Assembly: GCF_001571005.1 (NCBI RefSeq)
Contig: NZ_BCST01000007.1
Span: 62,001-126,000, forward strand
DNA from: Herbiconiux solani NBRC 106740
Lineage (GTDB): Bacteria; Actinomycetota; Actinomycetes; Actinomycetales; Microbacteriaceae
DNA: 64,000 bases
Direction of reading: 5' to 3'
In this document: piece by piece, positions 39,294-46,747 of the stretch
Position numbering within the stretch: the first letter of the stretch is position 1
Layout of the letters: every line of letters begins with the position of its first letter
Translations under genes and position numbers: made by a program
Notes under the pieces: generated by a model
What the model was told of the DNA's origin: nothing
The model's input: the letters and a program-made list of their open reading frames with translations, nothing else
The model's database searches: none

Positions 39294-39323
39294 TTGCGTG
39301 CCGACCCGAGGCGCCGCTAACGT
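39294..39323 (+). promoter_or_regulatory. Sigma-A-like promoter of the rtcB leader
   Basis: TTGCGT (39294-39299), 18-base spacer, TAACGT (39318-39323). The start would be about 39330, 60 bases before the leader ORF. TAACG words at 39262 and 39273 precede it and may be regulator contacts. Confidence 0.5.
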
Positions 39324-39389
39324 GACCAAGCCCCAGAGGCACAACCCCACGCGGCACAACCCCAGACCACGCACGAGAAAGGACGAGCC

Positions 39390-39518
39390 ATGTCGATCAC
39401 GACGCAGAAGCAGCACCCGCTGCAGCAGCGCATCCAGCGACAGCTCGCCCTCGCACCCGTCCGCGCACTCGCGGGCAATCGCGATCTCGAGTACACCGTC
39501 GTGGTGCATCCGGCCTGA
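39390..39518 (+). CDS. Leader ORF upstream of rtcB (42 aa)
   Basis: A 43-codon ORF starting MSITTQKQHPLQQRIQRQL and ending EYTVVVHPA, with AAAGGA 6 bases before its ATG. It is Gln/Arg-rich in the first half. No family is recognised. Its stop at 39516-39518 lies 6 bases before a hairpin set that ends in an intrinsic terminator, and no -10 element is apparent between that terminator and rtcB. The layout is that of a leader peptide in a transcription attenuator, though a free-standing small protein is the alternative. Confidence 0.6.
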   Translation: MSITTQKQHPLQQRIQRQLALAPVRALAGNRDLEYTVVVHPA

Positions 39519-39524
39519 TCCGCC

Positions 39525-39582
39525 GCCCCTGAGAAGGGGCAGCTCTCCCGCCCCGCACCGCGTCCAGGTCCGGGGCTTTTTT
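39525..39582 (+). terminator. Candidate attenuator: alternative hairpins and intrinsic terminator before rtcB
   Basis: Segment 1 GCCCCT (39525-39530) pairs with segment 2 AGGGGC (39535-39540) across a GAGA tetraloop. Segment 3 GCCCCG (39550-39555) pairs with segment 4 CGGGGC (39571-39576), extended inside by ACC/GGT, and is followed by T6 (39577-39582): a textbook intrinsic terminator. GGGGC of segment 2 can instead pair with GCCCC of segment 3, which would destroy the terminator. Terminator well supported, switching inferred. Confidence 0.65.
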
Positions 39583-39671
39583 CATGCTTCCGTCGTTCCA
39601 GCCCACGCGGCGCGAGCGGCCCCGGTCCGAACGGGCACCGTGAAGAACGAATCAAGAAGAGAGAAAGGACC

Positions 39672-40847
39672 ATGGAGAAGATCACCGACCGCCTGTTCAG
39701 TTGGGCGAGCATTCTCGACGAGAACGCCCGCGCGCAGGCCGTCACCACCTCCACGATGCCGTTCGTGTACCCGCATCTGGCCCTGATGCCGGATGCGCAC
39801 CTCGGCCTCGGTGCGACCGTCGGCTCGGTCATCCCCACCCTGGGGGCGATCATCCCGGCTGCCGTGGGAGTCGACATCGGCTGCGGCATGATCGCGGTGA
39901 AGACGCAGTTCACCCGCGACGACCTGACCGCGAACGAGAAGGGCCTGACCGAGCTGCGCGAGCAGATCGAGCGCGCCGTCCCGCTCTCGGCGGGCGGCGT
40001 GAACCGTCGCGTCGTCGAGACCGCGGCGCCGAGGATCGCCGACCTCGAGGCGCGGGCCGCCGAGTCGGGCTTCGACCCGGCACTGTACGCCAAGCGGTGG
40101 CGCGAGCAGCTCGGCACCCTGGGCTCCGGCAACCACTTCATCGAGGTGTCGGCCGACGAGACCGGCGCGGTCTGGCTGTTCCTGCACTCGGGTAGCCGGG
40201 GTGTGGGCAACCGCATCGCCGGCCACCACATCGAGGTCGCGCAGAAGCTGATGACGCGCTGGTGGATCGAGCTGCCCGACCGCGACCTCGCCTACCTGGT
40301 CGAGGGCACGGACGAATTCGACCGGTACATCGCCGAGCTGCGGTGGGCACAGCACTACGCGTTGCTCAACCGCGAGGAGATGATGGACCGGGTCGTCCGC
40401 CAGACGAGCGAGTGGATGGGCGTGCCGGTGATCGAGCAGGAGCGGATCAACTGCCACCACAACTTCACCGAGAAGGAGCGGCACTTCGGCAAGGAGGTCT
40501 GGGTCTCCCGGAAGGGCGCGATCATCGCGACCGACGGCGCCCCCGGCCTCATCCCGGGGTCGATGGGCACCGCGAGCTACGTGGTCGAAGGCGCGGGCAA
40601 CCCGCTCGCGCTCAACTCCTCGCCGCACGGTGCGGGCCGCGAGTACTCGCGGTCCAAGGCTCGCAAGACCTTCACGCACGACCAGCTGCGCGAGGCGATG
40701 ACGGGCATCGAGTTCCGTGACACCGACGCCTTCATCGACGAGATCCCGCAGGCCTACAAGCCGATCGACCGGGTGATGGAGGATGCGCGCGACCTCGTGC
40801 GCATCCGTCACACCCTGCGGCAGCTGGTGAACGTCAAGGGCAACTGA
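39672..40847 (+). CDS. rtcB: RtcB family RNA ligase
   Basis: 391 residues. RtcB joins 2',3'-cyclic-phosphate (or 3'-phosphate) and 5'-OH RNA ends using GTP and Mn2+, in RNA repair. Metal and nucleotide motifs are visible: PDAHLGLGATVGSV, GVDIGCGM (Cys ligand), GSGNHFIEV, CHHNF, GSMGTASYVV and SSPHGAGRE, whose His is guanylylated. Length is that of the short bacterial RtcB branch. The ribosome site AGAGAGAAAGGA is purine-rich and close to the ATG. No archease or RtcA gene is adjacent. Transcription probably comes from the promoter at 39294 through the leader ORF and terminator. Confidence 0.93.
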   Translation: MEKITDRLFSWASILDENARAQAVTTSTMPFVYPHLALMPDAHLGLGATVGSVIPTLGAIIPAAVGVDIGCGMIAVKTQFTRDDLTANEKGLTELREQIERAVPLSAGGVNRRVVETAAPRIADLEARAAESGFDPALYAKRWREQLGTLGSGNHFIEVSADETGAVWLFLHSGSRGVGNRIAGHHIEVAQKLMTRWWIELPDRDLAYLVEGTDEFDRYIAELRWAQHYALLNREEMMDRVVRQTSEWMGVPVIEQERINCHHNFTEKERHFGKEVWVSRKGAIIATDGAPGLIPGSMGTASYVVEGAGNPLALNSSPHGAGREYSRSKARKTFTHDQLREAMTGIEFRDTDAFIDEIPQAYKPIDRVMEDARDLVRIRHTLRQLVNVKGN

Positions 40848-46294: not shown

Positions 46295-46374
46295 CCGGCA
46301 CAGCCTAATCCGTGCCTGCACAGGCGGTGATCAGGGCCATCCGGCATCATGGAGGCAAGGCCGCGATGCGGCCT

Positions 46375-46414
46375 CCGGACGAGGGCGCAGTACCCGGAGA
46401 GCGACAAGACTGAC
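46375..46414 (+). ncRNA. Guanidine-III riboswitch (ykkC-III)
   Basis: The conserved core CCGGACGAGG (46375-46384), UACCCGG (46391-46397) and GACAAGAC (46403-46410) appears in order with the expected short spacing, and CAGU at 46388-46391 can pair with ACUG at 46409-46412 for the pseudoknot. This matches the ykkC-III class from memory. It lies 18 bases before the sugE start and would free translation when guanidinium is bound. Confidence 0.85.
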
Positions 46415-46432
46415 CACACGAGGAGTGTCGTC

Positions 46433-46747
46433 ATGTCCTGGGTCGTTCTGATCGCATCCGGTGTTCTCGAGGCCGTCTGGGCCACGGCCCTGGGCCGCTC
46501 GGCGGGATTCACCAAGCTCTGGCCGACGGTGATTTTCGCGGGCGGGCTGCTCGCCTCGATGGGCGGGCTTGCGTTCGCGCTCCGCACCATCCCGGTCGGA
46601 ACCGGCTACGCCGTCTGGGTCGGCATCGGCGCCTCGCTCACGGTCGCCTACGGGATGGCCTTCGGCGGCGAGGGCTTCTCGCTGGTGAGGACGCTGCTGG
46701 TGCTGGGGATCGTGGGGTGTGTGATCGGCCTCAAAGTCCTGCATTGA
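46433..46747 (+). CDS. sugE: Small multidrug resistance family guanidinium exporter (SugE/Gdx)
   Basis: 104 residues, four membrane helices, dual-topology SMR protein. Glu13 and Trp16 in SGVLEAVWATALG and the GTGYAVWVGIGA segment are features of the Gdx (guanidinium/proton antiport) branch. The riboswitch just upstream confirms the substrate class. AGGAG precedes the ATG at 46433. Confidence 0.92.
   Translation: MSWVVLIASGVLEAVWATALGRSAGFTKLWPTVIFAGGLLASMGGLAFALRTIPVGTGYAVWVGIGASLTVAYGMAFGGEGFSLVRTLLVLGIVGCVIGLKVLH

Follow-up and report, generated by a model that had tools for sequence, protein, structure and literature searches.

A putative translation-coupled transcription attenuator upstream of rtcB in Herbiconiux solani and related Microbacteriaceae

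Our analysis indicates that the region upstream of rtcB in Herbiconiux solani NBRC 106740 is very probably an rtcB attenuator, in which completed translation of a short leader ORF is predicted to turn the gene off. For the fuller reading, namely that a translation-coupled transcription attenuator controls rtcB and that its signal is failing translation in general, we estimate a probability of about 0.7. Sequence comparison among relatives supports the putative promoter, the leader ORF, the intrinsic terminator and an alternative pairing (2:3) that tracks each lineage's own terminator; we infer the sign of control, the coupling between ribosome and RNA polymerase, and the general nature of the signal. 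All positions refer to the window, that is, the whole stretch of 64,000 nucleotides that was analysed, in which the rtcB locus contains the following features:

39294..39323, + strand: promoter, with -35 TTGCGT (39294-39299), an 18 nt spacer and -10 TAACGT (39318-39323); recognised as a family-wide pattern
39390..39518, + strand: leader ORF of 42 codons, starting with ATG, with the ribosome site AAAGGA just upstream and the stop TGA at 39516-39518; from the ORF list and the sequence
39500..39507, + strand: segment 2, the putative antiterminator strand CGUGGUGC, within the last leader codons; from the fold and the family-wide swap test
39525..39540, + strand: local hairpin GCCCCU-GAGA-AGGGGC (1:2 of the original prediction), six bases after the stop; from the sequence
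39550..39582, + strand: intrinsic terminator, with GCCCCG 39550-39555 pairing with CGGGGC 39571-39576, ACC 39557-39559 with GGT 39567-39569, and T6 at 39577-39582; -17.5 kcal/mol
39555..39562, + strand: segment 3, the putative antiterminator partner GCACCGCG, forming eight pairs with 39500-39507, one of them G-U; from the fold
39672..40847, + strand: rtcB, RNA ligase RtcB, 391 aa; PF01139, 6.7e-119

The promoter-like element, the 42-codon ORF with its ribosome site, the terminator with T6 and rtcB all lie in the sequence where the original prediction had placed them, and transcription probably starts near 39330. A profile search across the 3.85 Mb genome gave a single PF01139 match, which is rtcB, and the terminator pattern has one occurrence in the whole genome. 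The closest named relatives of this RtcB are Herbiconiux records (87-89% identity). An RtcB match is absent in five of 16 same-genus genomes. The leader is missing at one same-genus rtcB (L010), the same-genus loci inspected for a leader being those other than the partial matches L011 and L012. One same-genus genome carries a second rtcB copy (L013, G010:C18; 68% identity) which has no leader and comes directly after another reading frame. Elsewhere in the window, a guanidine-III riboswitch (RF01763, 54.9 bits, 46355-46418, + strand) is followed by a small membrane protein ORF (46349-46747, true start probably near 46433) whose product, on visual inspection, resembles a Gdx/SMR guanidinium exporter.

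Among the best 80 of 567 named rtcB relatives, chosen by RtcB similarity alone and nearly all of them Microbacteriaceae by record titles, 78 have a leader ORF whose stop lies a short distance upstream of a GC-rich hairpin. In a second family (f7), all four genomes of the sample that bear RtcB have the leader too. The two misses are L092, which has no clear leader, and L021 (Rathayibacter iranicus), in which the leader ORF apparently has no stop and the terminator is degraded, other Rathayibacter leaders being intact; the decay at L021 is possibly a natural loss of control. In another record, L031, both RtcB and leader are of Microbacterium type, and the name in its title, Planococcus sp. APC 4015, is probably wrong. 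The 78 relatives, the window, two same-genus loci (L008 and L009) and eight others from an order sample make up a set of 89 leaders, no two identical, which were placed mostly by script (17 of the final set and L028 by hand). Their ORFs measure 19-44 codons (median 30), start with ATG in 72 cases and GTG in 17, and end 10-35 nt (median 18) before the hairpin. A strict test, consisting of a ribosome site, 18-45 codons and a stop 5-36 nt before the hairpin, is passed by 80 of the 89, where shuffles expect 0.56 with a maximum of 3; as these leaders were picked partly for having an ORF, 78/80 is the less selected figure. The terminator helix is 99.1% paired in the Microbacterium-type alignment. 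Folding 72 leaders jointly with RNAalifold was also tried and set aside; because leaders of different genera cannot be aligned, hardly more than the terminator emerged.

In relatives, a 5'-terminal hairpin, GCUGUGCCG..CGGCRCAGC, stands before the leader ORF and shows double changes in five of its eight pairs (40 chosen sequences). Such a hairpin could serve as the binding site of a leader RNA that senses a ligand or a protein independently of translation. We consider this reading highly improbable: the window shows no evident hairpin of this kind, the ORF and its ribosome site are kept in 78 of 80 relatives, and no Rfam family reaches its gathering score at the leader site, the best weak match having an E of 0.12.

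The alternative pairing had to be relocated. The original prediction took AGGGGC, located after the stop codon and forming one arm of hairpin 1:2, as the strand that would pair with segment 3 in place of the terminator. Hairpin 1:2 is indeed present in the window, but a local, perfect hairpin (at least five pairs, between stop and terminator) is found in just 9 of the 89 leaders. The AGGGGC:GCCCC pairing was discarded as a general mechanism, since it depends on a hairpin that only 9/89 leaders have in any form; it is not the conserved alternative. The antiterminator supported by our comparison would instead have the terminator 5' arm (39555-39562) paired with the final codons of the leader ORF (39500-39507). 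Examining rtcB leaders of related genomes for conservation and covariation, as had been suggested, thus bears out the ORF, the terminator and the corrected 2:3 pairing, and not 1:2.

The leader peptide ends differ by genus: Herbiconiux has VVH.. or VH.., Microbacterium mostly a PPARAV-like end, Agromyces an EPAP-like one, and most Rathayibacter have RHP. In each genus, the last codons are complementary to their own terminator 5' arm and loop (GGUGC:GCACC, CGGYGCG:CGCACCG, GGCAC:GUGCC and GUCGUCCGG:CCGGACGAC). A swap test on 27 representatives chosen by hand gave a mean duplex energy of -14.8 kcal/mol for tails with their own terminators versus -11.8 kcal/mol when swapped (0/20,000 permutations). 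Other arm widths gave p 0.0001 at 10 nt and 0/20,000 at 18 and 22 nt, and one representative per genus (n=15) gave 0/20,000 at both widths tried; taken singly, nine of the 27 tails beat their own shuffles at p <= 0.05.

A second line of evidence comes from alignment A1, which holds 48 of the 49 Microbacterium-type leaders (L088 left out). One antiterminator pair is G-C in 41 rows and A-U in 7, a double change, and another is a C.A mismatch in 41 rows and U-A in 7; double changes occur at only the former pair in this alignment, where they are shared by descent and represent few events. When only distinct rows are counted (41), the antiterminator has 82.9% of its cells paired, versus 18-50% when the pairing is slid, and the covariation score is 0.073 versus 0.036 in shuffles (0/500), a value which the slide -2 control equals (0.073). 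Mimicry of the anti-Shine-Dalgarno sequence (CCUCC, in Microbacterium) was considered and dropped by eye; leaders of other genera have no CCUCC.

Computed folds are consistent with a switch. For the leader RNA 39329-39584 of the window, the fold of minimum energy is the antiterminator 39500-39507:39555-39562, with the GAGA hairpin inside it; the shorter RNA 39480-39584 adopts the terminator fold or, as long as segment 4 has yet to be transcribed, the 2:3 fold. Across the 27 representatives, early pairing of segment 3 with the ORF, ahead of the synthesis of segment 4, has a median probability of 0.68 and is weak in some (0.03-0.14 in seven, 0.25 in an eighth), and masking the last codons gives a terminator probability of at least 0.82 in all 27. 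By computed folds and swap tests, the antiterminator overlaps the ORF and excludes the terminator. Since its strand is the 3' end of the ORF, the sign of control becomes predictable, which the original prediction had held it not to be: completed leader translation is predicted to cause termination, and delayed translation to turn rtcB on. This comparison of sequences gives good support to the earlier idea that read-through into rtcB depends on ribosome behaviour on the leader, with the antiterminator strand moved to the 3' end of the leader ORF. The opposite sign, where leader translation would be needed for read-through, or no switch at all, with rtcB constantly low, would fit the preference of the free shorter tail for the terminator at equilibrium in many leaders (0.95 in the window, 1.0 in Microbacterium), so that transcription order must decide there. 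We see very little chance for either, given that masking segment 2 raises the terminator probability by more than 0.05 in 17 of the 27 representatives and lowers it in none.

In the proposed mechanism, RNA polymerase would start near 39330 and transcribe the leader ORF. A ribosome close behind it that reaches the stop would cover segment 2, which lies in the last codons, allowing the 3:4 terminator to form and transcription to stop before rtcB. When the leader is translated slowly, or when its translation stalls upstream or never begins, segment 2 would be free as segment 3 emerges, 2:3 would form, no terminator would arise and RtcB would be made. Candidate triggers may be translation inhibitors, lack or cleavage of tRNA, and damaged ribosomes.

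Regarding what the leader senses, pN/pS is 1.04 in codons 2-24 and 0.24 in the last eight codons of 21 equal-length Microbacterium-type leaders, a group in which three divergent leaders were aligned without gaps, so that both rates may be inflated. This pattern fits selection on RNA pairing and not on the peptide. A query with the leader peptide found no relative in 149 other family genomes, matching its own genome only (1/150), and no conserved arrest-peptide sequence was found among the leaders; the last codons are conserved within genus, which is explained by RNA pairing. The lack of amino-acid constraint in the leader body speaks for a sensor of translation in general.

A plain sigma-70 consensus scan did not call the window promoter (TTGCGT-18-TAACGT). 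Of the 89 homologous leaders, 72, the window's included, carry the pattern TTG[AC]-N18-21-TANNNT no more than 110 nt upstream of the leader ORF, where mononucleotide shuffles expect 0.36 with a maximum of 2; it lies at a median of 48 nt from the start codon. The same pattern occurs in none of the 89 intervals between terminator and rtcB; for this promoter type, to which the scan was limited, the lack of a promoter that had been noted there in the window extends to the family. The small ORF and its terminator might otherwise be read as an independent small gene, rtcB having its own promoter after the terminator. Terminators are common after short genes and only one promoter type was covered by the scan, yet we give this reading hardly any credence in view of the 89 intervals free of that pattern, the unconstrained ORF body, the tail that tracks its terminator and a peptide that finds no relative in the other family genomes. 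Between terminator and rtcB, several genera carry a CTGCAG-centred near-palindrome (e.g. CGACACTGCAGGGTCGG, CTCCTCTGCAGGGGAGG; L028, L034, L035, L051, L053, L065, L068, L077 and L087).

The same RNA switch could also be codon-specific, reading the supply of Gln, Tyr and Asn aminoacyl-tRNAs, that is, their cleavage or starvation, a reading that we regard as unlikely. In 38 chosen leaders, Gln makes up 9.3% of residues, whereas nucleotide shuffles give 3.4% and four other ORFs of the window 2.3%, and it is present in all 38; Tyr, Asn, Glu and Leu are also raised against shuffles (Glu not against the four window ORFs), and Gly, Cys and Trp are lowered. However, Gln is enriched but scattered, and no single-codon run at a fixed control site is shared across the leaders; the pN/pS of the body also speaks against codon-specific reading, and the bias, for which the background is only four ORFs, may reflect selection for unstructured, G-poor RNA. 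A more specific form of this idea, which we consider doubtful, is that the Gln/Tyr/Asn-rich ORF would be slowed by anticodon-loop cleavage of tRNAs, RtcB being switched on by its own substrates, and that in genomes without WhiB7 this cis device would replace control by the WhiB7 regulon. If true, broken tRNAs would induce the ligase that repairs them, closing the loop on RtcB substrates. Our preferred reading continues to be a signal from failing translation in general.

The rtcB leader was not found in more distant relatives. Of 84 leaderless upstream regions that we collected, 24 have AAAA-N2-5-TG no more than 200 nt from the match start, where shuffles expect 2.8 with a maximum of 7, and in the next 200 nt it is found once; some of the class-level regions belong to RtcB proteins of only ~45-55% identity, and one region without strict motif (L134 = L156, the same place) is counted twice in these 84 and in the 82 used below. 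These findings suggest that rtcB belongs to the WhiB7 regulon in those leaderless relatives. Boxes of this kind upstream of rtcB were recorded at L106, L107, L109, L119, L120, L123, L125, L127-L130, L140, L141, L150, L152, L153, L157, L166, L167, L169, L171 and L173. An excerpt of PMC7157823 gives the WblC box as GAAAWY, 3 nt before the -35 element. GAAAWY occurs in 20 of 82 leaderless regions (6.0 expected, maximum 13) and, together with a fitting -35 in a pattern devised here, in 12 of 82, where shuffles expect 0.6 with a maximum of 3 and the opposite strand gives 2; this last pattern was found in 0 of the 89 leader loci.

A WhiB7-type query with an AT-hook tail gave strong matches (above 80 bits, a cut chosen here) in many families of a 198-genome order sample. 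Among the matches listed, none was strong for Microbacteriaceae (f1) or f7, theirs being of about 40 bits. The H. solani genome itself encodes two WhiB proteins, both without AT-hook tail, which we take to be WhiB1- and WhiB2-like. WhiB7 and boxes, here defined as AAA[AT]-N2-5-TG, were compared for 65 of the 69 RtcB matches outside this genome. WhiB7-positive genomes have the box in 19/50 and the leader in 0/50, and WhiB7-negative genomes have the box in 0/15 and the leader in 8/15 (Fisher, 0.0025 for the box and 1.3e-6 for the leader, with kinship ignored, so that these are facts about few clades). Counter to a simple swap, the strict box is absent from 31 of the 50 WhiB7-positive genomes, and both box and leader are absent from seven WhiB7-negative ones (f6, f10 and one f16). 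WhiB7 presumably acts through these rtcB boxes; its AT-hook is described in the available text of PMC3905903 as binding an AT-rich motif upstream of the -35 element. The comparison points to a swap of two wirings with the same logic, WhiB7-type boxes at rtcB where WhiB7 is present and, in relatives that seem to lack WhiB7, a uORF attenuator private to rtcB.

Attenuation mediated by ribosomes has been known for a long time, and rtcB is an unusual target for it. Full-text searches of mostly non-subscription literature found no described rtcB attenuator among the matches listed, judged by title and start of abstract, in agreement with the original statement that none of this type was known. In trp/his-type attenuators, alternative 2:3 and 3:4 hairpins are chosen according to ribosome position on a leader ORF. 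The rtcB leader likewise would have 2:3 and 3:4 alternatives read by ribosome position; it differs in having no run of control codons, in using the end of the ORF as its segment 2, and in having no conserved 1:2 hairpin (9/89, counted only from stop to terminator).

Within actinobacteria, the likeness to whiB7-type attenuators drawn by the original prediction is apt, both systems placing uORF attenuation ahead of a translation-stress gene. According to excerpts of PMC7157823 and PMC12121999, whiB7/wblC is controlled by uORF transcription attenuation and induced by several classes of ribosome-targeting antibiotics. Its target is the regulator whiB7, whereas here it would be rtcB directly, in genomes without a strong WhiB7 match; the two are likened by layout and not by leader sequence. 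In Escherichia coli, stalling at various sites of the toiL uORF before topAI is proposed to free the gene, which would make toiL a general translation-stress sensor (PMC12121999, excerpt), as we propose for the rtcB leader. In that account toiL governs ribosome-site access and Rho-dependent termination, whereas the rtcB leader has an intrinsic terminator before the gene. In enterobacteria, the available text of PMC7790460 describes that rtcBA, under RtcR/sigma-54, responds to tRNA fragments, and that of PMC12606134 names antibiotics that target the ribosome, as well as colicin D, as inducers of Rtc. In both cases RtcB would be made upon damage to the translation machinery, but RtcR is a protein sensor acting in trans and the rtcB leader an RNA acting in cis, a concrete cis device for rtcB that predicts RtcB production when translation falters.
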